The notes below the pieces were generated by a model. The model did not search any database, was not told where the DNA came from, and saw only the letters and a program-made list of their open reading frames with translations. Shown here in pieces: positions 9,422 through 45,299 of a stretch of DNA of 64,000 bases; the stretch's first letter is position 1; every line of letters starts with the position of its first letter. Both the position numbers and the translations under genes were made by a program. Source of the stretch: Tricholoma matsutake (Eukaryota; Basidiomycota; Agaricomycetes; Agaricales; Tricholomataceae); contig AP026541.1 of NCBI GenBank assembly GCA_026075535.2, forward strand, positions 2,418,001-2,482,000, written 5' to 3'.

Positions 9422-9726
9422 TGTTGGAGCAGACTATATACGCTGCACAGGGGAAGAGACTACACGTTCCTTACAACCTACCTGGGGTTTAGTTAGACTT
9501 ACAGCTAGGGTTAGCAGAGGTAAGAACACTGTATTCCTACTACGGTACAGGTTCTCCTTATATACATAATATTAAGGATGTCACATGACTCGGGAATGTG
9601 TTTACCACATGTATGCGCAGTAAGCGCAGTAACATGCGTATGCTGCATGTATCGCCTCATGTATACATGTGTATGCTGCATGTATTGCCTCATGTATACA
9701 GCATGCATCAGGGATTAATTTCAACA
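9422..9726 (-). repeat. Copia 3' LTR
   Basis: 305 bp. It matches 14874-15178 base for base by eye apart from the terminal base. It contains tandem-like CATGTATRC motifs that generate a short spurious frame in both copies. Confidence 0.96.
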
Positions 9727-9736
9727 CCCCCCCTCA
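9727..9736 (-). other. Polypurine tract of the copia element
   Basis: On the minus strand the sequence TGAGGGGGGG abuts the 3' LTR, the expected position for the plus-strand primer. Confidence 0.85.
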
Positions 9737-9758
9737 AACTGTACAGCGCTCTAAGCAG

Positions 9759-12700
9759 CTAAGTTTGAATCTCGAAAGTAATTCTGAGAGAGTCTCTAAA
9801 TTTCCTGAATAGGACGGCGCCAAGGTTCTTTGTGAACATGTCAGCCGGATTATCACTTCCAGGAATGAAAATGACTGTGACTTTGTCATTTTCTATGCAT
9901 TCGTGGGTGTAGTGGTAGCGAATGTCTATATGTTTGGTCCTTCTTTCCTGAACTGGATTTGATCCAATAAAGATGGATCCTTAATTATCAGTGCAGATTG
10001 GTACGCACTTCAGTGTATATCCAAGTTCTTGGAATAAGGACTCTATCCACACTATCTGCCGACAAGTGTCGGAGAGAGCCATGTATTCGGCTTCTGTGGA
10101 TGACAGTGCTACAGTTTTTTGTAAACGGGACTGCCAGCACACAATGCCACTCGCCAGAGTAGCAAAGTAACCCGTTGTAGATCGGCCCTTGACTGTGTCA
10201 GCTGCCCAGTCAGAATCTGTGAAGGCCTGTAGCCCCTTGGATTTCTCTCCATCATAGACTATACTGTACTTCTGGGTTCCCACCAGATAGCGCATTATGT
10301 ACATTGCTTTGTCTAGATGTTCTTGGCTAGGATTAGCCGAGAATTGCAACATCTTGATTACCGCATAAGCGATATCAGGTCGCGTTCCGAGCATCAGATA
10401 CAATAAAGATCCGATCACAGACTGATATTTTGATCTAAGCACCGCGTTTGGCGTTGCTGTGTTCTCCGACGGTTTGTAGCCAGTCGGGAGTGGAGTGGGG
10501 GCAATCTTGGCATTTGTCATCTCGAACCTCTCAAGCACTTTGGCGAGATATTCTGTTTGATCGAGTTTGACTTTTGCAGCAGTCTGGGTGATGCGCATGC
10601 CTAAGAATTCCGTGACTTTTTCAGTACTACGGCACTCCCAATGCTTCAGGCAAGCATTCTTCTTTTCATCCACAAGTTTCTTGTTCTTGCCCATGAACAA
10701 GCCATCATCAACATAGACTAGCGCAATAACGATGCTGCCTGTCTTAGGATCCTTGTGTATGAAGATGCCGGCATCGGAGCTGGCGCGCACGAACCCAATG
10801 GTGCGCATAAATGCCTCTAGCTCTCTCCACCATGCTAGTGAAGCCTGTTTAAGGCCATACAATGCTCGGCGTAAGCGCATTACTTTGTGCTCTTTACCCT
10901 CGAGTTTGAAACCCTCGGGTTGATCCATATAGATCTCCTCATCAAGTTTGCCATATAAAAATGCGGTTTTTACATCTAGACCGGTCATATACATGCCTTC
11001 TAGAGATGCAAGGGCAAACATGAGGCGTACGGTCTCGTAGCGGACTACTGGTGAGAAAATCTCATCAAAGTCAACGCCTTCGACTTGTGAAAAGCCTTTG
11101 GCCACGAGTCTGGCTCGTTTTCTTCCGTCCGATTTCACGGAGAAAACCCATCTATTTTTGATCGTTTTTTGATCATGTGGAAGATCGACGATGTCATAGA
11201 CTTGTCGCTTGCGAAGAGCCTCTAACTCTTCATGACAAGCCTGTTTCCACTCAAGTTGCTGCTGCCGGGGTAGGCGCGCAATATCGTGAAATTGGTTTGG
11301 AACTAGGCTTTTTCCGCTTGATGGTGTGACTGCTTTTGACAACAGCCAGCGGATAAGCTCATCTCCACCTTCCTTGGTTATCTTTTTAATATAACCTGCT
11401 TCGTCCGGTTTCCCCATTGGGTAATCATGTTCTTGATTATTGGAATCGGGCACACTCTCATGAGGTGCCGAACTCGGTCCAGTAACCGGTTCTTGCTGTT
11501 GAGGTCGTGGTCGTGTTCGGTTATGATCCGAATCTTGACCCACAGACTTCTTCCAATATCGATCACGCGCAATGTCTCTCTCTATGTCAGAGGGGAGTCG
11601 CTGTTCTCCATAGGTATTGCCAGGACGGTTTGGGATTTTCCTCTGCCTGCCTGATCGACGGGGCAATTGCTGCCATTCCTGTTGATCTTCACGTCTTGGA
11701 CGAAAGTCCTCAGTGCTAACTGGAGGCGGCGGAGGAGGAGCGTTAGTCGCATCGTCATGCGCCTTTTGCTCGCTTGGTAAATCATCATCATCATCTTCTG
11801 ATGATGGAGGAAGGGGCAGATTTTGTGGTGGTATAGGGTCATCGCCATCCATTCCAGATGAGTGGTCGTCATCTTCTGGTTCTGGTGGAAAATCACCAAG
11901 GTCTGTCTTGGCAGGAGTTTTAGCTCCGGGACAGCATGGGAACATCGTTTCATCAAATAGTGCCGTAGCACCAATGAATATTGCGCCGTTTCGTCACATG
12001 AAACGATATGCTTTAATGCCATCTTCTACTCCAAGGTACGTCATTAACTCCGATCGAGGAGACAATGTTGTTGGACGTTTTTCCTTTGGTAGATAGACAT
12101 AAGCACCGCAACCGAAGACCTTCAGATTGTTTAGATCTGGGCGGACCTTTGTCAGGTCCTCAAAAGGTGTCAGCCATTTCAGGCGCCTTATTGGGGTTCG
12201 GTTGTATAAATGTGTTGCATGTTCTATGCAAAATTCCCACCATGATTGTGGTAGACAAGCGGTGAATCGCAGGGTTTGCGACTTTTCCATTATTGTCCTT
12301 ATGGCGCGCTCTGCGCGCCCGTTCTGTTGATGAACGTGGGGTGCAGACATCTCTATTTTGATGCCTAAATCCTTGAGCTGTTTTTGTAGCTCACGATCCT
12401 TGAACTCCCCCCCTGGATCGACACGCCAGCGCTTGATTGTAGCGCCATATTGGGTCTTAGCCATCGCTTGAAATTGTCTAATCGCTGCAGCAGCGTCAGA
12501 TTTCTTTCTCAGGCATTGGACCCAAATATGTGATGTTTTGTCATCCAGAAATACAATGAAGTATTTATGTTTGTGGTACGATAGTACCAGGAGTTCCTTT
12601 AGGTCGGAATGTATTAATTCAAAGGATTTGTCAGCTCGTGAGTCTGACTCGGGAAAAGATTTTGAGGTCATTTTCCCTTCTGCACACCCTGGACATATAA

Positions 12701-14624
12701 TTTTGTCTTTAGGAATAATTAAATTCCTTGGGAATTTTATGGTGCTTTTAGGCATTTTCCCTAGCGCCTCTTTGGATGGGTGTCCAAGTTGCCTATGCCA
12801 AGTCAAGTAGTCAGCGACATAAATGGTCGCGACATTAACCTTTTTGGTGCTCAATATATGAGTCCGAGCCCAATAGATCGTGTCATTCCTCCTTAGAGGG
12901 ACACAATGCATGATTGGGTTTCCATGCTCGATGAATGAAATGTATGCGGAGGAACCACGCACATCACTTCCATCTTGTAAAAAGACCCCCATTGACATCA
13001 ATCAAGTATTAATGTCGGGTATGTAGTAGACGGGGTATAGTCGCGTTTCACGCGTCTCTGACTTCCCATTACATACTACCTGGTGCCTAATGAAGACTGC
13101 TCCTTTTCCTACTATATGAGTAGTACCAGTGGCCGTTTGGACCAAGGTAGAGTCCTTTCTCGGTAAAGGCTCGTAAGAAGTGAAATCTTTCATTTCACCA
13201 GTGAAGTGTTTTGATGCGCCTGAATCCATGATCCAGTTGGCACCTTTCTTACAATCTCCCTTTGCACACATAGCACATATATTAAGATCTACATAATTCC
13301 ATGATACATTTAATAGCGGTAAAATTTCACATGAAAAGTTCGCTGTCATCATAGGAATTTTAATCTTAGTGCTTGTGGCAGGGAAAAGGACTGACCTGTC
13401 ATCATACGCCCCTGTATCAAGGGGTTCATCGACGAGCATTTTGTCGACAGCTTTCCACACTTCCTCGTCAGTTACTGGAGGTTCGGATCCGAGGGAGACG
13501 GTATCGTCTTCTACCTCCTCGATCGTTGCCTCGGTTTCTGGCTCTATCCTCCTTCTCTTACCTTCTCGCACCGTAAGGTGCTCTTCCAGCGGTCGCAGGT
13601 TTTTCGCGCTGCGCGGAAGTTGCATGCGCTCGAGGGTGTCTCGAGCTTGCTGGTATTCGGTGTAAACCGAGCGAGAAGAGGAGGCTGCGCCCGTGTATGC
13701 CTGTGCAGGCAGTCAGCGGCAAGGATCCCTTGTGGGAGTGTGTTCGCGTCGCTCGATGCGCTGTATGAGCGGCATCGGCGGTATGATGGTGCCATTACCA
13801 TTTATGGTGGTAAAGGCGTTGGAGGCGAGGTGGGTATGTTTCTCTTTTGGCTTCTCCTCCTTAGTCTTTCTGTCCCCACGTCGTCCACGTTTTCGGGACG
13901 AGTCTCCGTTGCTGTTTTGCCCTTCTTTGGGCTGCCATTTGGGGTTTCCCCCCTTGCGCTTAACAGTGGAAAGTTTGTTGGCCTGAGGCTGGCCAGCGGG
14001 CTTTCCAACTGCTGTGCGCCTTGAGGCTTCAGCAACAATGGAGTCCTTGACATGTTTAAATGTCAAGGCGCTAGTGGCGGTCGTGTTAAGGACCATTGCA
14101 GACAATGAGTCGTACTCGTGCGGCATCGCAGCAAGTAGAATCATCGCCTGTACTAGCTCGGGGATGGCGATGTTAGCAGCCGTGAGGCGCTCAAATTTGT
14201 CTGCCATTCTTGCAATCTCTGGTGCAGGGTTCGCAGCCGGGATTTTGATTGTTATTGCAGACCTAAAGTCCGAAAAGACTTGGGAGGGGCCATCCACACC
14301 ATAATCGGTGCGAATGAGAGCCCACACCTCCTCAGCAGTGTCCTTTGTGTTGGCACGCTGCCGAATGGAGGGGGCCAGGCGGAGCACTAGGCTACCAATA
14401 GCCTGGTCATTTTTGTTGCTCCAGGTCTGGAGCTTGGCATTAGCATCCGCTACCAAGGTAGCATTCGTCGCCGTCAAAGGAGGCGCCGGGGGCGGTTTTT
14501 GCTCTGCCCTGCTAGTTATTTGCCAGAGGCCCTGAGACCTGAGCCACGCCTTCATTGAGTTGGCCCATAGAATGTAATTTGATCCATCGAAAGTTTGAAC
14601 GAGTTTTTCAAGAGTTGAAGACAT
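9759..14624 (-). pseudogene. Copia Gag-Pol polyprotein, single frame with four premature stops
   Basis: From the ATG at 14624 to the TAG at 9759-9761 there is one continuous frame of 1621 codons, the usual single-polyprotein plan of copia. Gag (UBN2-like, LVQTFDGSNYILWANSMKAW) has a basic tail and no visible zinc knuckle. Protease has DSGASKHFTG near 13226. Integrase has WHRQLGH, CPGC, HSDLK, VDPGGEF and NGRAERAI (12.85-12.2 kb). Reverse transcriptase has the YVDD box near 10710. RNase H has STEAEYMAL and ends near 9760. Stops are TGA at 13713-13715, 13002-13004 and 11994-11996, and TAA at 9981-9983 where the family reads Gln (DNQG). All four are explained by C to T on the coding strand. An alternative ATG lies 11 codons upstream at 14657. 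Confidence 0.93.
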
Positions 14625-14861
14625 GATTCTGTGGTGGCAGCTGTTAAAAGCGCTCAATCAGTCTTTTTACTCAATAAAACACGTTTAACGTTCTCAGGAG
14701 AAAAAACTCCTTCAGAGTGGTTAACACTAGTCAACCTAGGTTTTATATGCAGCTCGCAGGGAGCGCAATGCAGCTCACGAAGAGCGCAAGGTTATAATTT
14801 GGAGACAATGAAGTCAACGTCGTTCGCAGCTAATTAAAGCGCATTCGCGACGTGCCCAGCA

Positions 14862-14873
14862 GGGCCCATAACC
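14862..14873 (-). other. Primer binding site matching the anticodon arm of initiator tRNA-Met
   Basis: Immediately after the 5' LTR the minus strand reads GGTTATGGGCCC. This is complementary to the anticodon-arm segment GGGCCCATAACC of eukaryotic initiator tRNA-Met, not to a tRNA 3' end. It implies half-tRNA priming as in Drosophila copia. Confidence 0.75.
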
Positions 14874-15178
14874 GGTTGGAGCAGACTATATACGCTGCAC
14901 AGGGGAAGAGACTACACGTTCCTTACAACCTACCTGGGGTTTAGTTAGACTTACAGCTAGGGTTAGCAGAGGTAAGAACACTGTATTCCTACTACGGTAC
15001 AGGTTCTCCTTATATACATAATATTAAGGATGTCACATGACTCGGGAATGTGTTTACCACATGTATGCGCAGTAAGCGCAGTAACATGCGTATGCTGCAT
15101 GTATCGCCTCATGTATACATGTGTATGCTGCATGTATTGCCTCATGTATACAGCATGCATCAGGGATTAATTTCAACA
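14874..15178 (-). repeat. Copia 5' LTR
   Basis: 305 bp, ends CAACA on the plus strand next to the GTCTT target duplication. Its inner terminal base is G where the other LTR has T. Confidence 0.95.
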
Positions 15179-19989: not shown

Positions 19990-22035
19990 TCTTGGTTCAT
20001 CCAAAATGGTCAAGAACTGAGAATGATATGACCAGATACATTTTGATTATAATTGGGGAGTCTGAAGGAACTTGTTGCGCAAGGCTTCATAAGATGCATA
20101 GTCACAGTCATGGGGCACATAACCTGGGGGTCGATAGCTGAGTGTGGTGACATACGGTCTTGGGTAAGACACCATTGGCTTTGGTCCCATTATTCTTGTG
20201 CTAAATGGACATCCTCATAGAAGCAGTTGTTGGGTGATATCACTATAATGTGGACCCCATCTTCGACATAGACATTTGAGTGCAGTAGCTGGGTTTGACA
20301 ATACCAGACTCCACTCTGTATTATTCTCTGAATGTAGTAGATTTGATCAGATAAGATATACTTTGTCCTGGTTTGTGTCCTTGACCATAACCGTGCTGAT
20401 CGAATCTGGATGATGAAATAGATACAAATGATTTTTGGGATGAAGGTCCCAAAGTGAAGCAGGTAGGTCAGCAGCACCCGCTCGGTCCATGTTGATAAGC
20501 CACTGTAACATATCTGGAATTGCCTCCTCCAATCATTTGTCTTCAACCTGCCTGTCCTCTTCACCCATAATGTGCATTGCTTTATACCAATCCATTCATT
20601 CAGGCAGTTGAAGCCTTGTATAAGGGCCATTACATATTTGAATACCATATCTGCAACATGTGATTTCATCGAGGGTTTGAGGTGGCTCTTGATACTGGAT
20701 GTTGTTAGCCTCTGCTTGGTAGCAGGGGCTAACCTCTTGCCAGATGGTTCCATCAGGGACGGTGTCATCAATGGGTTGGTAGAGTTGATTGGCAATTTCC
20801 TCATCCTCGTCAAGTACATTGGGACCAACTGCCCCGGGATCAAACTCGGTGCACATGTCCCACTCATCTGTGATGTCATCATAGTGCTTTTGTGTGTTTG
20901 CATACTCCCCCCAAAACTCATAGATATCCTGGAAGGGTATCTGCTTTCTGATTCGAACCCCATCACCTTGTTCTTCCCAATGAAACACATAGGCACCTTT
21001 TTGCATAGGAGTCGGGAAGGATATATTTTTTATCTCTCGAGCTTCACGTCTGGAATGCTGCTCATTAGACTTGCATTCAATGAATTTCATTTGTTGTGCT
21101 GTCCTTCAAATGAAGTATGTTTTCCAGTCTTCATTCGGCTTCTGTCTTGACCCAGTTGGGAGTTTTATGTCAGCCATAGTTGCATCTGGGGATGCCAGTG
21201 GCAGCTGTGGAGAATTGAGTTTGGTTGAAAGGGACAGGTATTTATGAAGCCGTGCATGATACTTGTTAGGCGGTTTGTATTTGTTACCCCAGTATAACCA
21301 TATTGGTACATTTGCGAGTATCATGCAGTCAATGAATTCTGTCTGCTCCATGTCAGCAACATTGGCAACCATGCTGACTCACCCAATGCTTTCGGAAAAA
21401 TCAACAGCAGCGGAATGTGCAAAATCTTCAATCCAAGAAGCCTGTATGTTGGCATCGTTGCACTGAAGGATGGTAACCCATCACTGAGGTTTATGATGGG
21501 GTGAAGGTTTGGTTGTTGATATTGCAAATGTGCAGAGCACCATAAGACCGAGGAAGGCATTGTGTGACTTCATAGCGCAGTATTGTGCATGAGATTCCTC
21601 TTTATGTTTTTGCAGGTACCCATGTCCAGAAGGGAAAGGACTTGGATCAAAACCTAAAGGCAAATTGACTCTGTTATCCAAAAGAATGGTAGTTGCCACC
21701 CATCGGAGTGCTTTCTCGAGTCTCAACCATCGCTCTTGTATCTCCAACAAGAGGATGTACCAGTTTCCTTCCCTGATGATCCTTATGTTGCAGTAAGAGC
21801 AGATCAAGCACTTGAAAATAGGGTTATCAAAAGTCGTTGATTGTGGAACATATGCCAAGTGTGGTGAGAGAGCAGAGGCCCATCTGAGCATCTTAATTTC
21901 TCTGGGATGGTGGATTTCATTGTTATAGACATCGTCATAAGCTGGTATCACAGGGAGATAAGTCATGTTTGGGGAGGAATAAATGCTGCCATCTTTTTTG
22001 ACAAAAACGGATGGTCTTGAGGCTATATTTCTCAT
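19990..22035 (-). pseudogene. Multicopy basidiomycete hypothetical gene, one frame broken by TGA codons
   Basis: On the minus strand a single frame runs from 22035 to about 20100. Landmarks are RWLRLEKALRWVATTILLDN, HAFLGLMVLCTFAIS (about 21600-21520), FIDCMILANVPIWLYWGN (about 21350-21290), DEWDMCTEFDPGA (about 20870) and RPPGYVPHDCDYASYEALRN (about 20125). I recognise a very common family in Agaricomycetes with no assigned function, often found beside transposons. Stops at 21481, 21106, 20596, about 20536, 20347 and about 20217 are all TGA and frame is otherwise kept. That pattern is point decay, not intron structure. Confidence 0.65.
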
Positions 22036-22091
22036 GATTGTTATTAAAACTACTGGCTGTACAATGAATTAAACCCACCCATGGGATGTTA

Positions 22092-23465
22092 CTATAAGTT
22101 TTGTGTAGCAGTTGCAGTGGTAGTTGTGTGGAGCTCGCAGGTTTCCACATGTTTGTTTGTTTGCATAATGCCAGACCGATATGGTGTCTGTGAAGTGCTG
22201 CCATATAAGGAGTGATATATATAGGAAACATTACAAAAGCTGTGAACAAATGTCCCCAGTACATATTGTTCTACCTTGATTCTTTCCAGCTCCTTCTGAA
22301 CAGCTTGCCAATCTTGCCAATCTTTTCCTGGTCTCAAATTCAAATCCTCATAATTGGTTTCTCTGTTGGGCGGATGTGTTTGAAGAGGTACTACGCCGCA
22401 TTTTTCTAGATCAGGAAATGATCTAGCTAAGAACAATGCCATAGGTTTGACATCGTCTTTGTGAACTTCTGTTGCTTCACTGATGCGCAATGCTTGAAGA
22501 TGATAAAAACAAGCTAGTGGCTCCAGATCGCCAACCTCAACAGATTGAATCTTGTCCACCCAATCAAAATTTCCTTCATCATCTGGACTGATACACATGA
22601 TCAAGATTTGGAGTGTATCATGATCGCAATGATCATGTAGTGCAGTGAGGATTTTTTGTAGCTTTTGCATGCTAGATGCATATTCCATGCCGCCGATATC
22701 AATGTATTCCAGTTTAGCTTGGCTGAGAGCATTGAAGAATTTGCATTGGCAATCACCTTTGAATAAGACTAAAGATAGTGTAACTCATCGGAGGTTATGG
22801 AAATGGAGGGAGTTTTCTGGCAGTAGTTCAATTGCTTGCATAGCAGAGATCTCCAGCTTTGTGATTGAATCGAAGTGAGAAAATCATATGAGCTGCTTTG
22901 GATGGATATTGATGTTACAAAGGGTAAGTTCTGCTGGTGCACTGAAACTTTTGCTATTAACAAGATATAGCATGCCAGAATTGATTTCTGTCAGTGCCAT
23001 TGGAGATCTTCCATTAAAAGAAAGTTTTTGCAGGCAATGGAATAAGTGGTCATTGGACAGCCATGTTAGGGATGCATTAACGATTGCATTGTACACATTG
23101 TTGTGGATCACAACATGGTCTTCATATCTTCCTGTATTGTAGTTGAATGAAGTATAACAATTGAAATCAAGCTCAGTCATGAGTTGTGCATGAGTAGTAA
23201 ACTTGTTCCAATCGTAATTGGTTGGAGTGGAGTTCAGAACCTATAAGATGTTAAAAGATAAGTATGGCTTTCACCAAGATGATATCAAGCATACAATTAG
23301 CTTATTGCCTGAGATCGGCAGGCAATGCAGTAGCTTCTTCAAGTCGTAGTTTCTTTTCCAAAGTTCTTCTAGTGCTGGTCCAGCAGTCCTTGTGCACACC
23401 AGTGCAAGATGTAGAAGATTGTGTATGCCACAAACATTTAATGCAATGAGTTGCACAAGCTCCAT
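22092..23465 (-). CDS. F-box / leucine-rich-repeat-like protein, possibly decayed
   Basis: The N-terminus (23465 down) looks like a fungal F-box: ALNVCGIHNLLHLALVCT ... GPALEELWKRN ... LLHCLP. An intron probably ends CTTATAG near 23240. Then come leucine-rich-repeat-like segments with LTELDFN..., LQKLSFNG, AELTLCNINIH, ITKLEISAMQAIELL and LEYIDIGG, ending near 22092 with a Trp/Glu-rich tail. Such proteins usually act as substrate receptors of SCF ubiquitin ligases. In-frame stops near 22880 and 22790 may be introns or damage, so this may be a pseudogene. The family is large in mushrooms and the substrate is unknown. Confidence 0.5.
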
Positions 23466-23699
23466 GGCTTCCAGGCATCATTCCATTGAATGGACTGGGT
23501 TGAAGAGTAGAAGGTGTAAATATGTACAGATACTTAGTCTTGCTGCTTGCTTTCGGACCTCCCAGATCTTTGATTTATCAAAGATGAAGAGTGTGGTTAT
23601 GAATGCCAAGCCTCCATGCTATATGCATGTAATATTCATGGATTCAATAATGAACATTGGAATAAAAAAGAGACAATCAAACACGCCTGTGAAGCCTTG

Positions 23700-24110
23700 A
23701 GAAGGAGGTAAAAAGGATGGTCTAATATCACTTGTTGTTCAAAGATAAAGGTTTACAAAACCAATGAGGGGCCTCCGCTAGTGGTTCAACTAGACATCTA
23801 CCACTAACTCCATTCCCAGCGTGTTCAACAATGCACACAAATTCTTCCCATGGCCATAATCCGTTGATTGTTCACATTCCTGAGTGTTGGATAACATGAA
23901 ACTGTGTCAACAGTAAATGATAAGCATTCGGGTTGGAACCTTGGGCATACGGGGGGAATGGGCAGATTCAACAGTAAGTGAATGCAGCTGAGAGTCATTT
24001 CAAAAAATAGCAAACAAATCATAGAGCCAGGTTGGGAAATTGATGGGACAGAACTGTTGAGAACTCGAAGTGGGCGTTGAGAACTGGAAGGACCTAGTAC
24101 ACCATAGAAA
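23700..24110. other. No gene recognised; purine-rich lead-in to the palindrome array
   Basis: The plus strand becomes G/A-rich (GAACTGTTGAGAACTCGAAG, GTTGAGAACTGGAAGG). No domain-bearing frame was seen. Confidence 0.4.
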
Positions 24111-27100
24111 TTCCCTGCAGTTTGACTGTGGAGAATTAGTTGGCTGTTGTATAGTCAAGGAAATCGAGGACAGTACATATGGAAAAGTCAGTGGACACAC
24201 AGTGCAAGGAAAGCTTGCCAAAGCAACGCCGTGTGTGCTGTAGACGAGTCTGTTCTCTGCAGTTGAACTGCTGAGAAATCACTAGTTGCCATTGAAGGAG
24301 GCACTAGCATTAAGGACCATAGGTGTGGGAAAGCAATGGTGAGTAGGCAGACAGGTAAATATATAGTTTAGCTTTCCCTGTGGTTCAACCCCTGGGAAAT
24401 GAAGAGAAATGAAAACGTGTTTTGAATGTTTCACTGTGACAGTCCAGATGTGACATCACAAATGCCAAAGTCACTCATCACCTCAGATGTGTGTGTCTTA
24501 CACTGTAAGGGGACTAGGGGGGTGCCCTGTGTGTTTTTCCTATTTTTTATGTTCGTCCTATATTTTTCCCCACCTCATTTCCTTCTATTCTTCATTTTCT
24601 ATGATTTTTCCAGATTTTATTACTAATTTTCCCTTGCTATCATGTTTGTACATGTTGACACTTTTATATTTAGAGGTGGAGTACCCCTTCCAACACATAC
24701 CCCTTGGTATGATGTCATTCGGCGGCCTTGATCTGCCTATCTCTGCCTTTTTCTATTTTTAGGTTATATTTGATTTTTGTCATCTTCACATATACTGGGC
24801 ATCAGCAAGGGGATCCTTAGAGTTTTCTCTTTGGATTTCCCTTTGCTAGGTGTGTCCCCAATGCCTGTATTATGTAGTATAACTTTAACTTCGGATTTCC
24901 CTTTGCTAGAGGCTTAGGTTGCCCTTATATACACCATATCTTTCCCTCATTCTTAGCTGTTGAATGGCTGGGAATGCTTAGCTGCTATCTTATTTAAGCT
25001 TACACCTACATTCCTTGTTCCCAGTGGTTTAACTGCAGGGAACGCTAAGCTACTATCTTATTCATGCATATACCTACACACACATGTACGGTCCTCCATC
25101 TTGGCGGTTCCTTTGGCAGCAACCAATGACTTCTCAGCAGTTCAACTGCAGAGATGTTCTACATCAATAGAGTCTTTGTGTATTGAATGTTCTTACCATC
25201 TTGATTTCCCAGTAGACCTACTTGCTGTGCTGCATGAAAGACCTTCTACAGATGACATATTTGAACTGGTGCACTTCTCCTTTGGAAGGACACTCTCAAA
25301 TTCTCAACAGTTCAGCTGCTGAGAATAGGACTGCTGTAATCTGCTGGTGCTGGCTCTACTGCTTGTTATTCAATGCATCTCTCACCAGCATTCTCTACCC
25401 TCTGGTTCTAACTTGTACTTCCTCATCATTGAACTGGAAGTATCTTCTGGTCAACATGACCAACTGTTCCCGCCTCATCGATACCTTGTTCCCTGTGGTT
25501 GGGCCAAGGCTTCTCGATATGGTTTGGTACATTGTTCCTAGCAGTTCAACTGCAAGGAACAAGATTCACATTGTCTTATTTCTGCCCCGTTGAACCGCTA
25601 TTTATATGTGCACACCATGTTGCATTGTTCCCAGCAGTTCAATTGCATGGAACAATTGTTTTCCCATTGTGTTTTCTGCTTTTGCATTTCTAAATAAGTC
25701 ACGTGTGCCAAATATCAACATCTCTCCCCCCCTGTGACTTCTATCTCCAGGCATTTTGTCTTTTATACGTCTTCTGCTAGATTGAACTTAACGGAATCGA
25801 TTTTCTCCTGCTTCAGTAGTTTAATCTTTACAGAGAAACCATGCTATTTATATTCTTTGGCACTAGCATCTGGACGTTTTCAAATTTTTGCCAATTCTAC
25901 TGCTATAAATGCCTGGTTTCTTTGACTATGACCTCTTCCCCGCTGTTCAACAGCTAGGAAATAATGGCTGTCTTTCTACCTTTTGGTTGTTCCCTGCAGT
26001 TGAAGTGCAGAGAACATTGTTGAAGTCGTTGGAATCATTCAATATGAGCTTAACAGAATTTACCTACCTTTGTGCCCACAGTAGACCATGATGCATGCAC
26101 ATTGGGTGATGTTGAGCAATGTGTACGCTATTTTCTTTTTGAATTTGTCTTTCCATCAGCATCATGAATTAGTTGGGTGTAGTTCAACCACCTGGTTTTA
26201 GTGTAGTTTTTTTGCTTGCTTCATCATAGTTTCTTCCTGTTGAACAATGGATGCCAGTGCCAGCTTCCCCATATCTTCAAAACATTTTCATCATATTGTT
26301 CCCTGCAGTTGAACTGCAGGGAACATTCACTTGTTGTTGTTGCCAAGTTATACTTTCGTTCTCATTCCCCGTGGTTCAACCGCAGAGAATGCGTGTGGAG
26401 AATGGTACTCATTGTCTACACTTCCAGTTACTGTCTACTCCTTTCTTACAGAGACTGTGTTTGTCATTTGCTTTGGTAACTGTTGAATTCTCAGCAGTTC
26501 TGCAGATAATGTCTACGGTGTGCTCTTTTGTCTGTGTGCATTTGATTCATGATCAATTGCAGAGGATAGTACTCATTGTCTATGCATCCACTTACTCTCC
26601 CCTCCTTTTCCATGGGCACCTTGTTTATCGCTGGAGCTTGCTTCTATCGTAACCAGCAAATTCTTAGCAGTTCAACTGCTGTACATTGAACCCTTCCTGT
26701 TTCTTGTCCTCTCTGACGTGCTGTACGATCCCTTTATGGTTGTGTAGTTACTTTGGGAGTTTACAGCAGTTGAACTGTGGTAAACTGTGTTGCTCTCCCC
26801 TTCCAAGACTTCACGGCCATTCAACAGCTGTGTATTCTCGTGCTCCTGCTGCTTGGTATGCTCTCATATGAATTCTACTGGTTCTTGGGCGCGATTATGG
26901 CATTGACATAAATGTAGGGGTCTCTTACGTTGCCATATTTTGTTACATTTGATCACAATATTGCATTGTTCCTAGCAGTTCAACTGCCAGGAACTCCCAC
27001 TTTGCCTTGATGTTTCCTGTGGTCGAACAGTGGTTTCTTGTGCTTTTTTTATTGTTTTATTCAAGCCATGTTACGCTGTTCCTGCAGTTCAATTGCATGG

Positions 27101-27156
27101 AATATTTGTGTTTCCTTTGCATTTTACTTTGTGCGTTTCTAAAAATGTCACGTGCC

Positions 27157-27203
27157 CCAAATATTGACATCTCTCAGGGGGGGGGAGGGATGTCAATATT
27201 TGG
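27157..27203. repeat. Perfect 15-bp inverted repeat around a G-tract
   Basis: CCAAATATTGACATC and GATGTCAATATTTGG flank TCTCAGGGGGGGGGAGG. The related segment near 25709-25730 has only the left arm, so the right arm is new in this copy. Confidence 0.85.
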
Positions 27204-27539
27204 AGCAACTGACCTCGATCTCCATCCATTTTTTCATTTATACTTGTTCTGCTAGGTCAAACTTACTGGAATCAATCCTTTCATGCTTCAGGAGAATAAG
27301 CTTCATGAACTGGCCTTCCTATTTTTTTTTGTTGGTGCCTGAATCTTGTCATTTTCAAATTTTTGGCAGGTTAACAGCTAGAAAATACTGGTTTTATTAT
27401 TATTCCTGTCTCTGACCATGACTTGTACACTCTCACCCTTTTAGATCATTTGGCATTGCACGTTTGTTCCCAGTGGTTCAACCGCTGGGAGCGTTCGATC
27501 CAATCTGGTTTCCCATAATGTTACATGGCACACAGCCAT

Positions 27540-28110
27540 TCCCTGCTGTTGAATGATGGTTAGTGTTTATTTCATATGAGCGTTACTGGAACATTGAATC
27601 TTTTTCATCGTCACCTGCTGTTGAACAACAGGTAACATTCCTTCCATCCTGATGTACCCATATCTTTAAATCTTTCTTGGTCTCTTGTTCCTCACAGTTG
27701 AACCGCAAGAAACATTTATTTGTTTTCTTGTTGGTTTCACTTGGCATCGATTTCAAGGCACTTTTGCCTGCTCCAATGATCCTGCTTGTCATCGTTGCCT
27801 GCCGTTGAACGGTTGGTAACCTTCATGCCTGTCATCGTTGCTGTTGAGGTTAGTGTTTATTTCATACGAGCATTACCGGAATATCAAATCTTTTTCATCA
27901 TTATCTGCTGTTGAACAGCGGGTAACTTTCCTTCCATCCCGATGTACCCATATCTTCAAATATTACTCGATCTCTTGTTCCTCGTGGTTGAACCGCAAGG
28001 AACATTTATTTGTTTTCTTGTTGGCTTCACTTAGCATCAATTTCAAGGCGCTCTTGTCCTGCTCCAACAAACTTGCTTGTCATTGATGCTTGCTGTTGAA
28101 TGGTTGGTAA
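27540..28110. repeat. Tandem duplication of about 290 bp within the palindrome array
   Basis: GTTAGTGTTTATTTCAT begins at 27559 and again at 27849, and the two units stay alignable for about 270 bp. Each carries three palindromes in the same order. Confidence 0.85.
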
Positions 28111-28745
28111 TGTTTGTTCATCACCGGTGTCCCTATTCTAATCTGGGTGTTCAGTGAACCATGTTTTACCCTGTTTGCATTCGACTTCTGCTTGTCTTCT
28201 TTTTGCCTTCAATATTCCTCACCATTGAATGGCAAGGAAAGTCTGTTCAGGAAGACCAACCATTTGTGTGGACGGTTGCTGCCTCCTCTTGCTGTTGATG
28301 TTCTGAAAGGTTCAACTCCTGGTTGGTGGCCTTCCTGTGTTGGATTGTCTGCATTGGCTTCGAACTATTCCTTGCAGTTGAACTGCAAGGAACATTGTTA
28401 ACTTATGTGCTTGAACCTTTATTAACAGGCTTGTTATTGGTACTTACTCGATGTAGTTACATGTGTTTAAAAATAGACTTTTATGACATAGTCACATGCT
28501 TTTATCCATGCCCCTTTCTTCTTGCCATCATAATCTCCTCCTCGCCATCTGCACTTGCACCTTGGTTTTCTGGATACACTCTGTCAGTAGTTCAACTACA
28601 GACAGCTCTTTCTGATCCAGTGGTTTTCGGTGGTTGTTTGGCATCGCCCCTTGTTGTTACGTTCTTTTTTTTGTTTTCCTAGGGACTGTCCATCAGCAGT
28701 TTAACTGCAGACCGATTGTGTTTTCATTTGTTGGTGATTTCCAAC

Positions 28746-29385
28746 ATGTCGATCCATCCTAGGATGTTGCAAATGGCACCTCTGGAGCTGGTGGTGCCAG
28801 ACGGTGTTCTTCTGTACAATGTGAATTGGGATGGCCGATTCCCTTACATCTTCCAGGTTGATTCTCATCTGTTAGTTCACGATTGTGACTCTCCCAGGCG
28901 CATCCTCGTGTACATCCAGGATACATCAGTTGAAGGTTTAGAAGCTCTTGAAGCTTTCGAGGCCAGTTTGGAGGTTCTGTTGGGTCTGAACGACAGTGTT
29001 TCAAACCTTGGTGTGTGTATGCATTTTAACATTCTTGCAATTGTTTACAGTGATTTCAAGGTATATTTCAAATCGATCATGATGACCTTGTCTTCATAAG
29101 GGACATGCAGGATCCAAATCCTGAAAAGTATGTTCTGGGTGGGTGGGTTAGCGATTGGTAAGTTTCATCAGTTTGGACACTGGCAATCTTCTGAACCTTT
29201 ATTTCAGTACCTGGTTACATGCGGACAATCCTAGTGTCCTTGAAGAAATGATCCACATCCAACATTTGGTAGTAGGCGATGAGGCATTTGCAAAGCTGGG
29301 GTGCCCTGTTAAGGAAAATGGTGTTTGGATCGGAGGCACTGCATGGGAGTACTGCAATGGTCTGAGTGGTGTCAAGGGGAGCTGA
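28746..29385 (+). CDS. Unrecognised small gene with two introns
   Basis: The ATG at 28746 opens a frame with MLQMAPLELVVPDGVLLYNV and a Leu/Glu-rich stretch LEALEAFEASLEVLLG. An intron at 29011-29060 (GTGTGTATG ... TTTCAAG) and one at 29158-29207 (GTAAGT ... TTTCAG) join phases correctly (265 + 97 + 178 nt). The result is a 179-residue protein with DLVFIRDMQDPNPEKYVLGG and DNPSVLEEMIHIQHLVVGDE. It ends at TGA 29383-29385. If one G in the run at 29378-29381 were dropped, the frame would continue to a TAG near 29479 with DLPINVLGDWYRL. No domain or signal peptide is recognised. It starts about 30 bp after the last palindrome and precedes DUF6589. Base composition looks like coding sequence, and no stop interrupts it, unlike its neighbours. 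Confidence 0.45.
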
Positions 29386-29619
29386 TGCTACACTCTGGGA
29401 CCTTCCCATCAATGTTCTCGGTGATTGGTATCGCCTACGGCCTCAGCCAAGGTTGCTGATCATACTCTTGATGAAGTAGAAATTTCAAATTTCAAAATGA
29501 CTTTTGCATGTCACAACATGTGGTATATTTGAGCTGCTCTCCATGTTTCCATCTTTTTCCTTTGTTGAGCCTGTGTCTGGCAGTGGTGGACCAACCTCTT
29601 TGACTCCTAGATGCCAGGT

Positions 29620-32600
29620 CCATGAGTGCATGAAGCAATGAGCAAAATTGACTCTCCACTTCCTCTGTCATCACCGCTTTCATCGTTTGCTTCTTCCCCT
29701 ATACATGCACCATTTGTTATATGTTCTACAACACCACATCCCCCCTCTCCTCATATTTCTCCTCCACAACTTCCTCCGTTATCAAGTGATGATCTTATCT
29801 GGAGCTCCCCAGTGGTTGGCACAAAGGAACAATGCACTGCAAAGGTGCGTACCAAAGGATACAGAAAGCAAAGGACTACTATTCAGAAGAAACAGGAAGA
29901 TGAGAGGGAGCTTCACATCAGACATGCCACAAATGTGGCTCATGCAGCTGAGGAGTTGGAGGCAAAGAAGTAAGGGATCTTTGACGCCATGCTCAAATCC
30001 TTACAGAATCATAGTTATATGCTTGGCGACCTTCTGCTTTATGTTTCAGACCCAGTTTACAAGCAGGGGATCACTCAATGGGAAGGTCTCTTCTGTGACC
30101 GGTCTTTAATTGGGAAACTTCTTGATCTATGGAGTTCTCAGTCAGTACTGTGTCGCGTGAGCAAATCCACACTTGGGCTATTAATTATGTTTACAAGGAA
30201 GTAAGATGCAAGGCTCATGAAATTACTGCGTCAGGCTTTCTCCAGACACTCCATCGTCCAGTGAACATGGGCCTTGTGCTTGGCTTTGATGTCAGGCACT
30301 GTTGAAGTGTATTTCATGGAACATAGTTCAGTTTTTATGCAAGTCTTTCGGTCATTTGTAACATCTGCACATCAGCTTAGGAATGCCTCCACCACACAGT
30401 TGGCCAAAAAGATGACAGTATGACCCTCAGTTGTTGCATATCTATCAATCTGATTGCAAGAATTCATATAGGTTATAACTTCGGCAGCTCTTTCCCTGCT
30501 CAGTGAATCTAGCTACAGCAACAATTGGTCAAAGAAGATTTTAGGACTGTACATATATAGTTCAGGCTCACAGCGGCAGCTGATAATGATCCTGTCTCAT
30601 CTTGGTCTCTCTGAGAGCTATGATGCCATCACAGGGAAAAAATGGAAACACTGGCAGAAGCGCAGTGATTCACCTGCTAATTCACAAGAACCAACACCCA
30701 GCACTGCACCAGAGGATTTGTTTCAGGGAGGAAGCCTGCGACAGCTGTCTTGTTCAATGATTGACATGGCTTGAGCTGTTGCAGCCACAGGTTTATTTGC
30801 AACTTTGTATGACAATATCAATATGGTTTTCCGAGCTGCTGAACAAATAGTTGGGTGCACTGGTGAGAGCTGCATTGCATGCATGAGGAATAAGTATTGA
30901 TTGCTTAATATAGATGTGCAAGAAAATGGGACATGTGCAATGATTTGGCCCTTGTTCAAGGCATCTCTGGAGGACATGGATGTCTGTGATCTGGAGACCG
31001 CATTTGATCAGGCTGCTCCCCTTAAGGTTACTCTGGGTTTGAATGGGGTGTTTGGATGCCTGGTCTCTTTCATGTGAAGATGGCTGATGTCCATGGTTTT
31101 TTTGTCACACATTTTGGGATGGCAGCTGCAGGACCATGCAATCCTGGCTGTCTTGCTTTCCACAATGGTGTACTACAGCATAAACCCATTGTCCTTACCT
31201 CCCTTCTGCCCTTCTGTACTTGCCGAGATCTAATATTTGTTTCACTCTATGCAAGAGCTCTCCACTGTCTTCTTCTTATCTCAAAATCAACTTCACTAGA
31301 TGACTACACTGATGACGATCTTACCTGGGCAACATTGGAAACTCATGCAGAGCAAATTTTGCTCCAATTTGCGAATCCAGACAGACATTGTTGTGGACCT
31401 CCGAAATCAGTGTTGTTGTGCCCAAGAAGCACCTACAACACCTGACAAAACTTCTTTACGAGCTGGCGACATGGTTTTTGAAAATGCCATCTTATTTCTC
31501 CATGATGCATTACTCTCATGTGAGTTTCACGATGCTGTGAAATGTGGGGACTCTGGCCACGTTGTTCTGGTTCTTAAAACCTGGGCACTCAGCTTTTGTG
31601 GCAGTGGATGTACAAAGTATGCACATGAAATGCTACATCTCATCCACAACATTACTTGTGTCTGGCCCAAGAAGATTTGGTGAGAGAGTTTGATGTATTT
31701 TCTTGGTGGTAACCTTGACACAAAGATTTTCTAGTGATATTGTATACAATAACTGGCTTATCAATCTGACTGGGAAACCGAACTCATGGGTGGAAGTTGA
31801 TCTCATGCAGGAACATATGAACTTCTGGATCCAGGTATCCATTATTCCACCCATCGTAACTGTACTATTTGCTAGCAACTTTCTTCAAAGAACTTTTACC
31901 ATGCACATGGGAGCTCTGCTTCATGGGAGTGGCTTGAAATGATTGCACCCAGTGTGAATGTTCTTCGACAACTTGTCCACAACTTCAAGCAAATGCTTGG
32001 ATCAGATATCAGCACTGCTCACCACCCAATGGATCTGACATACGACCTCCCAGACCTCATGGAAAGCCTTGACCATCATGAGGTTTATGTCTACAAGAAA
32101 GGCCATTATCTTGATGAAGATGATCTTCCTGTTGAGGATGTTGTCTCTACTGGACTTCATGACCTTGTTAAGGGCTCAGGAAACCCTCTTTCAGATTACA
32201 ACACAGCTTTTCTACATTTGCAAGCTCGTTGCTGGTTGGTCCTGCTGGTTGGAATAGACCCACAACCAAATGGTCTCAGCAAAGTCAATCCATCTTTGGG
32301 GCCACTTTTGTTAAGTACTATGGCACCTGGAGATCAATCCTCACCAGTCTCACCCATCATAGACATTGCCTCTTCGGTTGGTGATGCAGTAGTTGGTGAT
32401 GTTGACAGTGAGGATCAATTGGAGATCCTAGACTCTGAGGAAATTGGAGAGTCGTTACTTGCCTATGAAGCAGATACAGAACCAGGTTTATCTTTGGAGT
32501 CAGCTGCAGATGTGTCTCTTGACATGGATTTGGAGGATATCAATTCATGTACAAGAGACTCGGATGCCAGAAACTCTGACTCAGACATGGAGAATAGTGA

Positions 32601-32628
32601 CAGTGCTGTTGATAGTGAGGAAAAGTAA
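29620..32628 (+). CDS. DUF6589-domain protein (multicopy basidiomycete family), probably decayed
   Basis: A Pro/Ser-rich N-terminus (29626-29800) leads into MLGDLLLYVSDPVYKQGITQ (about 30020-30075), ATLYDNINMVFRAAEQIVG (about 30800-30855), GLFHVKMADVHGFF (about 31065), LLSCEFHDAVKCGDSGHVVL (31500-31570), KPNSWVEVDLMQEHMNFWI (about 31780-31833) and SWEWLEMIAPSVNVLRQL (31930-31970). The tail is acidic (32400-32628). Introns at about 31680-31725 and 31835-31875 fit the family motifs on both sides. Stops at 29971-29973 (TAA) and 30772-30774 (TGA), plus frame changes, suggest decay. The function is unknown. The family is widespread and TE-like in mushrooms. Confidence 0.7.
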
Positions 32629-33616
32629 GATCATATGTATACACCGCACAATATCTATCTACTTTGAGGTGGGAGAAGAGAGGGATAATATTCACTGCGT
32701 GTGCAGCTGATAGTAGTCACATCAAACATTAAAATTTGACTGAGTCCCACATCACACTTGGCAGGCAGAGCTGTGACCGTGCCATGTGATGGTCCATTAC
32801 TTCCAGCTGCTATCGCACAAGTTCTATGAGTTGCTGAAAGCGGATGGTCACAAGCCTACTTGGCTGATTTGTTTTATTTAAGTTGGAATAAGAAGATACA
32901 CTATTGGCCCATCATTGGCCAATCATCAGTATTTGGTATTGCTTGACATTGTTGTCATGCCTAAATATAGTATCTCTTTTAGTTTTCATCCATTTTGGAT
33001 GATTTAACTTGAAAATAAAAAGATACTGTTGGTCTAACCTTAAAGGATATTTACAGATGTTTGCTATTATTTGTTAATATATCAAGCAGATCAAAAAGAC
33101 TATATCAGAATCAGTTCTAATTAACTTGTAGAAGGGTATGTAGCTTGGGCATTTTATATTGACAAAATTGTTTATCTTTATTTGTTAAATTATCAAAATG
33201 CTGTATCTTGGTCAATTCTTGGCCAATCTGTTTTATTTAACTTGGAATAAGAAGATACATTATTGGCCAATTCATTGAGATCATATTTGGTATTGTTTGG
33301 CATTGTTTGTGGTATCTCAGTTAGTTCTTCTTTAATCCAACTGATTTAACCTGCAAATAAAATATATACTGTTTGTACATTATCTAATTTAGGTGTGCTA
33401 ACAAAGGTTGTTTATATTTGTTATTAAATCATCAAAAATGCTGTATCTCACCCAATTCTTGTCCCATTTGTTGTATTTAACTTGAAATAAAAAGATATAT
33501 TGTTGGCCCATTATTGAAATCTCATTTGGAATTATTTGGCCTTGTTTGTATAGTTTCAATTTACTATTTCAGTCAGTTCTGATATAAACAATGTTGTATA
33601 CTATTAGACCATCATT

Positions 33617-34848: not shown

Positions 34849-35689
34849 TATATTTGTTATTATTTGTTATTATGAAAATAAGCTATATCTTCTTTAATGT
34901 TTAACTTGTAATAGAACAAAATATCAGTGATGCATCATTAACATAATAGTTTCCACTGTTTGGTATTATTTATTAGAGCTAAATATGAAGTTTATATTCT
35001 GTATTTTATGTTTTTATATATTATTCTGATCAGCTTCTTAAGCTGATTTAATATTTTTTTATTTCTTTGCATACTATTGGGGTTTTTATTATCAAATATG
35101 TCAGATATTTAGCATTATTTGATTATAAATCATAAAATATAAGAACTTGTATCTGCCAGAATTGGCCCTCACCCCCAAGTGAAGTTAAGACTTGTTCTTC
35201 AAACTGGAAATTGAGGAAAAATTCAGTGGTATAAGAAACATTTCCTTTTCCCCTATGGTCAGTAAGTTCTGTGCAACCATTACAAAAATTGCTATATGCT
35301 TCTTTTCAACCTTGTGCCATAATAGCCTTAATGACAAGAGCAGTGATAATAATCTACCAGTTTAGAGAGAGTAAGAGAGGCTGACAGTAATAATGAATGT
35401 GAACATTGTAGATTCTGTCAAATTAACTCTTTCAGCACTTTTGTTTGGCAGATAACTAGTCAAAAAAACAGCATTCTGAATACACTTTTTCAGCACAATC
35501 AGCATTTGTTGAAATTTCTTCTGGCTGAAACCCATTCAAAAAAAGATTTTGACTACTATAATATCTATGTTTAAATAAAACCACAGTATCATTGCAATCA
35601 AAGTATGATTATAGGCAAAGGATCTACTAAATAAAGAAGATAACATTGAAATTTATTTATTTTTATATTTATTTTTTGGGTTGTTTTTA

Positions 35690-39645: not shown

Positions 39646-40370
39646 GATGGAACGCGGGCCCAAACAACGCAGATCGCGTTGTTTGGGCCCTATATAAGTT
39701 TTTTTTGTTTGGTTTTTGTTTTAATAGACTAACTAACTCATTTTTTTTAGTTTTCTAGGTTATAATCTACTAGTAATGACGCCACCACCCACAAACGAGC
39801 CAACATGGGCCCAAACGATGCAGATTGCGTTGTTTGGGCCCTATGTAAGTTTTTTTTGTTTGGTTTTTGTTTTAATAAACTAACCAACTCATTTTTTTTA
39901 GTTTTCTAGGTTATAATCTACTAGTAACGACACCACCACCCACAAACAAGCCAACACGGGCCCAAATGATGCAATCTGCATTGTTTGGGCCCTATGTAAG
40001 TTTTTTTTGTTTGGTTTTTGTTTTAATAAACTAACCAACTCATTTTTTTTAGTTTTCTAGGTTATAATCTACTAGTAATGACACCACCACCTGCAAACGA
40101 GCCAACACAGGCCCAAACGACGCAGATCACATTGTTTGGGCCCTATGTAAGTTTTTTTTGTTTGGTTTTTGTTTTAATAAACTAACTAACTCATTTTTTT
40201 AATTTTCTAGGTTATAATCTACTAGTAACGATGCCACCACCCGCAAATGAGCCAACATGGGCCCAAATGATGCAGATCATGTCATTTGGGCCCTATGTGA
40301 GTTTTTTTCATTTGCTTTTTGTTTTTATAAACTAACTAATTGTAATTTATTGCTTTTTAGGTTGTATACT
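39646..40370 (+). repeat. Tandem array of five 151-bp exon-intron-hairpin units
   Basis: Intron-like segments lie at 39694-39758, 39845-39909, 39996-40060, 40147-40210 and 40297-40360. Each starts GTAAGT or GTGAGT (AT instead of GT in the first), has an ACTAAC branch motif and ends CTAG or TTTAG. Between them are 86-bp exon-like pieces starting GTTATAATCTACTAGTAA and ending in an inverted repeat (GGGCCCAAACGATGCA / TGCGTTGTTTGGGCCC) that abuts the next donor site. Start-to-start distances are 151, 151, 151 and 150. The exon-like pieces contain stops and are not multiples of three. Confidence 0.85.
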
Positions 40371-42080: not shown

Positions 42081-43321
42081 AAAATGGATGAGTTAAATGG
42101 GTGAATAAATGGATGAATTGTGATATGCACCTAATATGCAGAGGTTGAAGTGTATGCAAACTAGTCGATAGATATGAGGGGAGTCATGTAGAGAGTAAAG
42201 GTATTACTCACGGACCAGAGAAGGAAGTTAGTTTTAAGGGCAATTATGTAGTCTGAATTGGATATTTTGTGAGAAATCTACGAAGAGTACAAACATAAAT
42301 CTATCTGCAGATGGAAGTGAGACCGGTGAAAGGAGGAGAATAAATAAAATGATACTTACCTACCGAAGACCCTTTGTATATCGTGTAGATCATACACAAC
42401 ATCTTTGCCATTGTCATCTAAGACAAGCAGGCCACTGACACATGTTTGCTCTAACTAGCTATTTATATAGTTAGAGAAGAGGAGGAGCAATGGGATAGAA
42501 ACTCACCACTACTTCCCGCTGCCTTCTGCGCCCACACTTTTTGACCAAGAAACAATAATCGTAGCAATGAAACATTGCTTTCCTGGAATGCAGGCCAATG
42601 AAGACCTTATATCTGTGCTGTGATGAGTGAGAGGTTGAATAGAACACAGGGAGAATAGACAGACATAACTTAAACAGGCGGGAATGTTGGATGATTGGTG
42701 TGCATGATACACAAAGCATGGGTGTAGTGGATTGTGGTTGGGTGGGAAGAAGTGCTGAAGTGAGTTGGACATGAGTGGATGTGAGTAGTGATTGTTGAGG
42801 GCCATAGGTTCTAGTGTCCTTGTTGAGAGGGGAAGAACCTGTGAGAGATGTCAGCACAAGAGTAGTCCATTGTGCAGGTTGAAGCACAATGGAGGCACCA
42901 TAATCAGCACAATGGACCACTCTTGTGCTGACATCTCTCGAAGGTTCTTCCTCTCCCAACATGGACACTAGAATCCATGGTAGATGATAACAGCAAAGAT
43001 GTTGTGTACAATCTACATGATATATGGAGGGTCTTCGGTAGGTAAGTATCATTTTATTTATTCTCCTCCTTTCATCAGTCTCACTTCCATCTGCAGATAG
43101 ATTTATATTTGTACTCTTTGTAGATTTCTTACAGAATATCCAATTTCAGACTACATAATTGCCCTTAAAACTAACTTCCTTCTCCAGGCTGTGAGTAATA
43201 CCTTTACTCTCTACATGACTCCCCTCATATGTATCAACTAGCTTGCATACACTTCAACCTCTGTGTATTAGGTGCATGTCACAGTTCATCCATTTATTCA
43301 CCTGTTTAACTTGTTCATTTT
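42081..43321. repeat. Large inverted duplication with a 373-bp one-sided insertion
   Basis: 42081-42428 pairs with 42985-43321, and 42802-42890 pairs with 42891-42980 (turn near 42890). 42429-42801 has no partner. Both arms contain the same exon-like end (KDVVY-LHDI-RVFGR) followed by GTAAGT. A 193-residue frame across the turn is probably a by-product. Confidence 0.85.
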
Positions 43322-43629: not shown

Positions 43630-43634
43630 TAACC

Positions 43635-44172: not shown

Positions 44173-44314
44173 GTATTTCCCCCTTAGTGCCCAGCCTATG
44201 AGGCACATGAATGTTTGAATCCACATCGGGTATGTTGATTTTGATGGGTTCCCAGGTTCTTCTTTCAACCATCACTACTTCCACCACTTCAACTCCCATT
44301 CACTACTATCTCCA

Positions 44315-45133: not shown

Positions 45134-45299
45134 GGATCCAGCGGGGATCTGAAAATAAATAGTTTTCATTTTATTGTTTTTATTTGTAGAAATGAATGTC
45201 GTCTTCAAAGGAGTTGTATGATTGTTAAGTGGAGAGAGGACCAGGTTTCCCCAGGTAACGAGTGTGGTAGTCCGTAATGAGTTCCTGAGTGTGATCAAG

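Follow-up and report, generated by a model that had tools for sequence, protein, structure and literature searches.

The sequence analysed here, called the window throughout, is a 64-kb stretch of the Tricholoma matsutake genome (positions 2418001-2482000 of contig C4), and searches for related sequence covered the 161,040,721 bases of that genome in 13 contigs. Flanked on both sides by the remains of coding stretches, an array of about 30 palindromes occupies 24109-28716 of the window; no strand is assigned to it or to its parts. The stems extend to 12-14 bp around a GTT-S-AAC centre, and position 7 of the stem is mostly mismatched. Comparison with other copies in the genome gives good support for placing the array, as a cis-acting module, within giant rolling-circle transposons of the Helitron2 type.

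The initial annotation of this locus had described some 27 palindromes spaced about 170 bp apart, all centred on GTTGAAC or GTTCAAC and separated by mostly different spacers. The array itself is real: 21 strict palindromes (a core with at most one mismatch and at least 9 of 12 pairs) were found in the window, every one centred within 24265-28702, versus 0-2 in each of 20 Markov shuffles of the window, and two looser rules each returned 30 palindromes in slightly different sets. Exact GTTSAAC was counted 28 times over the 64 kb; 22 of these matches fall within 24111-28715, and the total of 28 was never reached in 100 shuffles (mean 10.2, largest 24). The finer description required correction. 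Several centres are GTTTAAC, GTTTGAC, GTTCAGC, GTTCAAT or GTTGAAG, the median spacing is 113 bp (range 16-576, the 16 coming from a doubtful match at 25159), and spacers recur within paralogous segments of the array. No significant 10-11 bp period was detected in the palindrome spacing. One perfect palindrome, TGTTCCCTGCAGTTGAACTGCAGGGAACA at 26297-26325, has a predicted folding energy of -14.6 kcal/mol as single-stranded DNA (-2.98 +- 1.53 for shuffled versions), and five examples folded in this way gave -6.6 to -14.6 kcal/mol. The + strand is strongly T-rich over the whole array. Because no open reading frame (ORF) longer than 140 amino acids lies within the array, a degenerate coding repeat is unlikely as the source of the palindromes. 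An Rfam scan of the window returned no family at gathering score, and a tRNA scan of the window found none.

The array-bearing transposon

The palindrome 13-mer GCAGTTSAACTGC has 141 sites genome-wide versus 2 for a reversed control, and seven element copies were read, some only partly. The copy at C1:14.10M is colinear with the window and about 90-94% alike (subfamily A). The copies at C1:7.10M, C2:0.62M and C2:7.75M, about 93-96% alike, form subfamily B, which carries a portion of the array in the opposite orientation to that of the window. Further arrays lie at C13:4.04M and C4:6.10M, with 21 and 29 palindromes and about 8% difference from the window outside the palindromes, and at C12:7.56M, with three palindromes. 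The central base is G or C in 26 of the 30 palindromes of subfamily A and 30 of the 32 of subfamily B, in near-equal numbers (13:13 and 14:16), and A or T is rare there.

The copy at C2:0.62M (the C2 copy, C2:609594-632750) has both ends, measures 23.1 kb and carries the array between divergent coding stretches. Reading outward from the array, it encodes a DUF6570 domain, a Helitron_like_N domain, which is the Rep (HUH) domain (PF14214, E = 2e-30), and a PIF1-type helicase (PF05970, E = 3.4e-24). The Rep/helicase frame, at C2:610576-617697 on the minus strand, has 2374 codons with five in-frame stops (four TGA, one TAA) and no frameshift. No Pfam match to a Helentron-type endonuclease was found in the scanned ORFs, the Rep/helicase protein being broken. 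Besides Rep/helicase, no DNA-binding family exceeded the Pfam cut-off in the flanking genes and the element; matches below it were zf-C2H2_7th_ZNF462 (E 0.04, window 21481-22068), SWIRM (E 0.049, L018:5801-6280), REP_ORF2-G2P (E 0.0012) and Nop14 (E 0.00024, an acidic stretch). A homology search with one downstream ORF retrieved three proteins, all named "hypothetical protein".

Homology between C1:14.10M and C2:0.62M breaks off sharply at ...CTGCCAGTACTGGCCCTCACCCCCAA, and the 5' end of the C2 copy reads TT|ACGAGTCCTTAACAAAGTTAAGACT. This copy has an asymmetric terminal inverted repeat, with ACGAGTCCTTA at the 5' end and its inverted counterpart some 28 bp inward of the 3' end, and by sequence reading a hairpin at each terminus (CTTAAC-AAA-GTTAAG at 5', GCCAGTACTGGC at 3'). 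Its ends, TT|ACGAGTCC and CCCCCAA, differ from the canonical Helitron1 ends (5' TC, 3' CTRR). The same minisatellite lies on both flanks, so the 23.1-kb element interrupts a minisatellite; TT precedes the 5' end, and since the surroundings are minisatellite the empty site is not unique. Genome-wide, the 5' end motif has 148 sites (at most two mismatches) and the 3' end motif 99, both versus 0 in the control. Array-bearing copies with paired ends number three and span 23 to 45 kb, some with nested insertions.

A comparison of C1:14.10M with C2:0.62M gives about 90% likeness in the helicase half and about 73% in the array half, and from this difference the elements look like mosaics. At two places (C1:14125414-14125440 and window 35153-35178) a 3' end runs straight into 5'-end-like sequence, as would be expected of head-to-tail or adjacent insertion.

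Pairing, covariation and constraint

Across the 30 window palindromes, 83.1% of the cells are paired, versus 69.4 +- 1.3 with shuffled arms (0 of 500 as high), and the covariation score is 0.447, versus 0.202 +- 0.018 for shuffled arms and 0.06-0.16 for slid registers; without the palindromes at 25784 and 27372 the figures are 83.8% and 0.432. When palindromes were chosen by letters only, positions 4-12 of the window array formed 174 of 243 possible pairs, where 5000 shuffles averaged 142.7 and never exceeded 162; the C2 copy formed 201 of 270, against a shuffled mean of 158.7 and a maximum of 176. Two of the seven sets were tested in this way; the short arrays on contig C3 contributed 1 and 0 rows.

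For the majority-letter counts, the rate comparisons and the palindrome counts per copy, the criterion for a palindrome was a minimum of 5 pairs out of 8, which biases positions 4-6 and 8-12 towards pairing and leaves positions 7, 13 and 14 unaffected. In subfamily B, pairs form at position 9 in 31 of 32 palindromes, where 14.4 would be expected, and are of the C-G, T-A and A-T kinds; at position 4 the count is 28 of 32 (expected 12.2), with four pair types. Position 13, outside the selection rule, is paired in 21 of 30 in subfamily A (expected 9.9). Position 7 is unpaired in 17 of the 30 window palindromes. In subfamily B only 4 of 32 are paired there (expected 12.0, P = 0.0008), and 18 of 32 show the mismatch T.T or A.A; in subfamily A the figure is at chance level (8 of 30, expected 9.7), and in a second family of elements described below the position is frequently paired.

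The initial annotation had held that a change in one arm is often mirrored in the other. This applies to palindromes within one array; orthologs seldom show double changes (0-6 cells in each comparison). Of the 30 subfamily A palindromes, 21 align with a palindrome of subfamily B (the C2 copy), and at these, pairing was kept in all four cells where both letters of a paired state had changed. One such change is firm: at 28380, A-T became T-A, identically in the three B copies and in alignments of 1.3-1.5 kb. At two sites (window 26311 and a second-family site near 508 bp) some copies are closer to the reverse complement of the other copies, as if the palindrome had been flipped in place, and at 25030 the gain from reverse-complementing is only one letter in five or six. 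G-C flips of the centre were not significantly faster than the spacer rate.

The palindromes also evolve more slowly than their spacers, in figures that cover alignable sequence only. Palindrome and spacer differences in five A-B comparisons were 11.1/24.9, 11.9/23.9, 12.5/24.5, 13.6/23.4 and 12.7/25.6% (p 6e-13 to 9e-7). Palindrome columns differ by 2.2-3.0% within subfamily B, versus 5.6-6.1% in spacers, and by 4.2-5.2% within subfamily A, versus 6.7-7.8%. In the gene adjacent to the array, the proportion of differing nonsynonymous sites (pN) between the window and subfamily B is 12.4-15.5% and that of synonymous sites (pS) 45-53%. The palindrome rates are close to this pN, so constraint on the palindromes is similar to that on sites whose changes alter amino acids; the spacers, too, change less than the silent sites of this gene. 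The ratio of nonsynonymous to synonymous change (dN/dS) in the helicase blocks of C1 versus C2 is 0.24-0.51.

Growth and rearrangement of the array

Within the array there are eight pairs of paralogous segments of at least 80 columns, three of them inverted. These segments include spacers, and the array has thus grown at least partly by segmental duplication. A tandem pair at 27544-28110 (27544-27819 versus 27839-28110) is 85% identical and carries both palindromes and spacers. The array is split at 24504-24929: alignments with the colinear C1:14.10M copy stop at 24503 and resume at 24930, and since the intervening sequence is missing from that copy it is a later insertion. Its part 24764-24929 is 97.6% identical to C1:7123418-7123583 on the other strand. 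Subfamilies A and B have the inner array block 24111-25726 in opposite orientations (as seen against C1:7.10M, C2:0.62M and C2:7.75M), with the order of the flanks kept.

Association with element ends and a second family

Association with element ends was counted with 123 listed palindrome hits (two exact variants) out of the 141 sites, which form 45 clusters. Within 30 kb of TACTGG-type 3' ends, the motif lies inside in 6 of 12 cases and outside in 1 of 12. For the other 3' ends (n = 87), a hit lies inside 5 and outside 2, and three of those five inside cases (C1:14134107, C9:2346252 and C11:6871206) point at arrays already counted for TACTGG ends.

The second family is recognised by a distinct 5' end with 20 sites. 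A hit lies within 3 kb on the inside of 17 of the 20 and on the outside of 0 of the 20, and the first hit falls 231-250 bp from the 5' end in 14 of 20. Seventeen of the 45 clusters are no more than 3 kb from a second-family end; the other 28 include several big arrays as well as singletons. Five copies were read; the first kilobase of each holds 5-7 palindromes, at about 260, 437, 508, 579 and 632 bp, with not every copy having all of them. By inspection of 4-6 kb on the element-sense strand of these five copies, no shared ORF of at least 120 amino acids was seen. The 3' end of this family was not found.

Element ends were paired by nearest distance, with 100 of the 148 5' ends. Among the matches listed there are 29 paired-end elements, 17 of them under 8 kb and 12 longer. 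Eleven of the 29 measure 2.5-2.7 kb and have both end motifs of the big element and no listed palindrome; they are likely non-autonomous derivatives.

The window copy and its surroundings

The copy of the element in the window is a relic, since its homology to the other copies ends at 29474-29484, its array holds an insertion, and the ORFs scanned from the window include no helicase of the array element. On the leftward side, broken coding stretches at 20053-23533 (minus strand) have no Pfam family above cut-off. They are shared with C2:7.74M at 89.7%, and parts are also common to C1:7.10M and C1:14.10M; the left gene appears F-box-like, as an impression only. On the rightward side, gene remains at 28731-29484 (plus strand) comprise two exon-like stretches, each with a dN/dS of 0.19 versus subfamily B. 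Beyond them, 29475-32858 has no match of at least 200 bases to the other copies. The remains of a DUF6589 gene (PF20231, by Pfam) lie at 31026-32628 on the plus strand, between the end of the array-side homology and a Helitron2-type 3' end of the AATTGG type, CTGCCAGAATTGGCCCTCACCCCCAA, at 35153-35178 (plus strand); a literature search on DUF6589 found nothing. This 3' end, which 5'-end-like sequence directly follows, may or may not be the terminus of the array-bearing element.

Other repeats populate the rest of the window. A Ty1/copia retrotransposon at 9423-15174 has 300-base end segments that are 100% identical, marking a young insertion, and a 97.5% copy at C1:7117317-7123074. A Ty3/gypsy-type retrotransposon (RNase H, reverse transcriptase, gag-like) occupies 43634-50665, and its parts recur as diverged repeats at 52110-53977. 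Inverted repeats were found at 7225-7683 (224-base arms, 93% complementary, 11 bases between), 42081-43321 (arms of 165-177 bases, 91%) and 51162-51731 (167 bases, 97%). A 151-base tandem repeat with 4.6 copies at 39651-40339 has a relative at C1:14110649-14111218.

Discussion

We tentatively favour the array as a cis-acting Helitron2 module of DNA dyads or hairpins that would be read by a protein and control the element, with a probability of roughly 0.4. The initial annotation was right that something preserves structure, as the arms are coupled across the array in both the pairing and the covariation tests, and they do not change independently at the rate of the spacers. Coupled stem letters imply that something senses pairing, which points to hairpins or cruciforms, and the near-equal G and C centres together with the mixed orientation point to DNA rather than one RNA strand. 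The units may be dyads at the DNA level that extrude as hairpins or cruciforms and are bound by a protein; recognition would concern the GTT-S-AAC tip and the outer stem (TTC/GAA), and the middle of the stem would have to pair with its letters otherwise free. Placed between two coding stretches that diverge, some 30 of these sites would most likely serve to control the large element, either through protein gathered over the promoters or on a supercoiled or single-stranded intermediate.

Several observations weigh against this reading. Mismatches counted in the gene-ward sense include more of the G.U than of the A.C type in the window (26:16), in C1:14.10M (25:16) and in the outer parts of the three B copies (11:6, 10:7 and 12:7; inner block 6:7, 7:5 and 4:5), which leans mildly towards RNA. 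Because the palindromes share ancestry through segmental duplication, fewer events lie behind the covariation within the array than it suggests. One-sided changes between subfamilies A and B brought 13 losses and 18 gains of pairing, and orthology is ambiguous for three of the four double changes (two cells at 26981 and one at 27623), their partner palindrome depending on the alignment. With just one firm double change between orthologs, the bulk of the covariation must be old and inherited within the array. No flipped site was found among 79 pairs in subfamily B. The constraint is not significant between the window and the C1 copy (5.2 versus 6.7%, p = 0.18) nor, by column, in the second family (4.8 versus 8.3% pairwise, p = 0.15). 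The second family, which keeps its palindromes with no shared ORF seen, fits poorly with a promoter role. Among the matches listed, the exact motif is in 0 of the 17 paired elements under 8 kb and in 3 of the 12 longer ones; short elements with the same ends do without it, and the exact motif is therefore not a general requirement for mobility.

A symmetric dimer might instead bind each palindrome as double-stranded DNA, the array being a duplex operator or enhancer in which hairpins never form. We consider this possible, if doubtful. The core is two-fold symmetric with its central G:C pair either way round, the core and the outer TTC/GAA are the most conserved letters, the array is placed between divergent coding stretches, and firm compensating change between orthologs is seen at just one site. 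However, half-sites read independently predict no coupling at the degenerate positions 4, 8, 9, 10 and 13, where strong coupling is observed, and a duplex dimer would require several site classes, shared ancestry of the classes or correction between arms. The palindromes could also act as hairpins in RNA, in a long leader or a non-coding RNA transcribed from the element; the initial annotation had likewise proposed hairpins in a long transcript. The T-rich + strand agrees with RNA hairpins, as does the G.U excess just given, although that excess is small, comes from related copies that are not independent, vanishes in the summed inner block (17:17), and could also arise from a C-to-T bias on the T-rich strand. 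Moreover, the palindromes persist where the inner block is inverted between subfamilies, and both centre base and polarity are mixed; we judge an RNA role improbable.

Arms might also be kept matched with no selection on pairing, by template switching (quasipalindrome correction) with only the core selected. Arms that match with many letter combinations and the two sites that appear flipped in place would suit such a process, which should, however, also repair position 7, where subfamily B is paired less than expected; the slow evolution of the stem columns is a further difficulty, and the probability we give it is low indeed. The least probable origin is local spreading of tiny foldback insertions, like the mitochondrial double-hairpin elements. 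Numerous near-identical hairpins do occur in one place, but palindromes and spacers duplicate together in blocks, also inverted (no dedicated empty-site search for single palindromes was made), 21 of the 30 subfamily A palindromes align with one of the C2 copy, and many of the clusters genome-wide belong to two element groups.

A more speculative reading, which we think rather unlikely, is that giant fungal Helitron2 elements carry a dedicated array of DNA hairpins, selected for pairing, that acts on a supercoiled or single-stranded intermediate and represents a new class of cis-module for rolling-circle transposons of eukaryotes. By analogy with the single-strand origins of rolling-circle plasmids, such an array could serve, for example, in priming, assembly or copy-control.

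To our knowledge, little has been described of the cis signals that Helitron2 elements carry apart from their ends. The array is a concrete handle on the workings of large rolling-circle elements, probably as protein docking sites or DNA hairpins, and could reveal whether rolling-circle transposons use internal hairpins. Its constraint, its covariation, the stem position exempt from pairing and the near-fixed distance from the 5' end in the second family make the sequence directly usable as bait or probe. It is also a warning that structure-conserving selection can act in transposons usually taken as neutral.

Comparison with known systems

Searches of the literature on palindromes or subterminal repeats of basidiomycete transposons, and on the palindrome sequence, found nothing, and the available portions of the mostly non-subscription literature on Helitron or Helentron palindromes or cruciforms describe no internal array. 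CACTA/Spm transposons carry arrays of subterminal transposase-binding repeats, and resemble the matsutake element in packing numerous short repeats, inverted ones among them, into a DNA transposon; they belong to another transposon class, and their motifs are short, unlike the covarying dyads of 25-29 bp found here. Fungal mitochondrial double-hairpin elements likewise present short hairpins in numbers but are individually mobile, whereas the matsutake array is nuclear, lies in a transposon and was duplicated together with its spacers. HELPO1 and HELPO2 of Pleurotus ostreatus are, like the present elements, agaricomycete Helitrons with extra genes and a subterminal hairpin; they differ in their CTRR-like ends, and the accessible part of their description contains no internal palindrome array (PMC4289320).

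The initial annotation knew of no nuclear fungal element like this one. The array nevertheless sits in Helitron2-like elements, which the available part of one account reports from fungi (FoHeli of Fusarium oxysporum, about 5-11 kb, with terminal hairpins; PMC5148889). Helentrons and HINEs are treated in PMC4067079, and the end features of Helitron2 are named in the accessible portions of both papers. As far as those portions extend, the matsutake element shares with Helitron2/Helentron elements an asymmetric terminal inverted repeat, hairpins at both ends, Rep and helicase, short relatives with the same ends and a TT before the 5' end (PMC5148889, PMC4067079). It differs from FoHeli in size, the array-bearing copies being 23 to 45 kb versus about 5-11 kb, and its internal array of about 30 conserved, covarying palindromes has no counterpart in the available part of that account, which mentions terminal hairpins only (PMC5148889).

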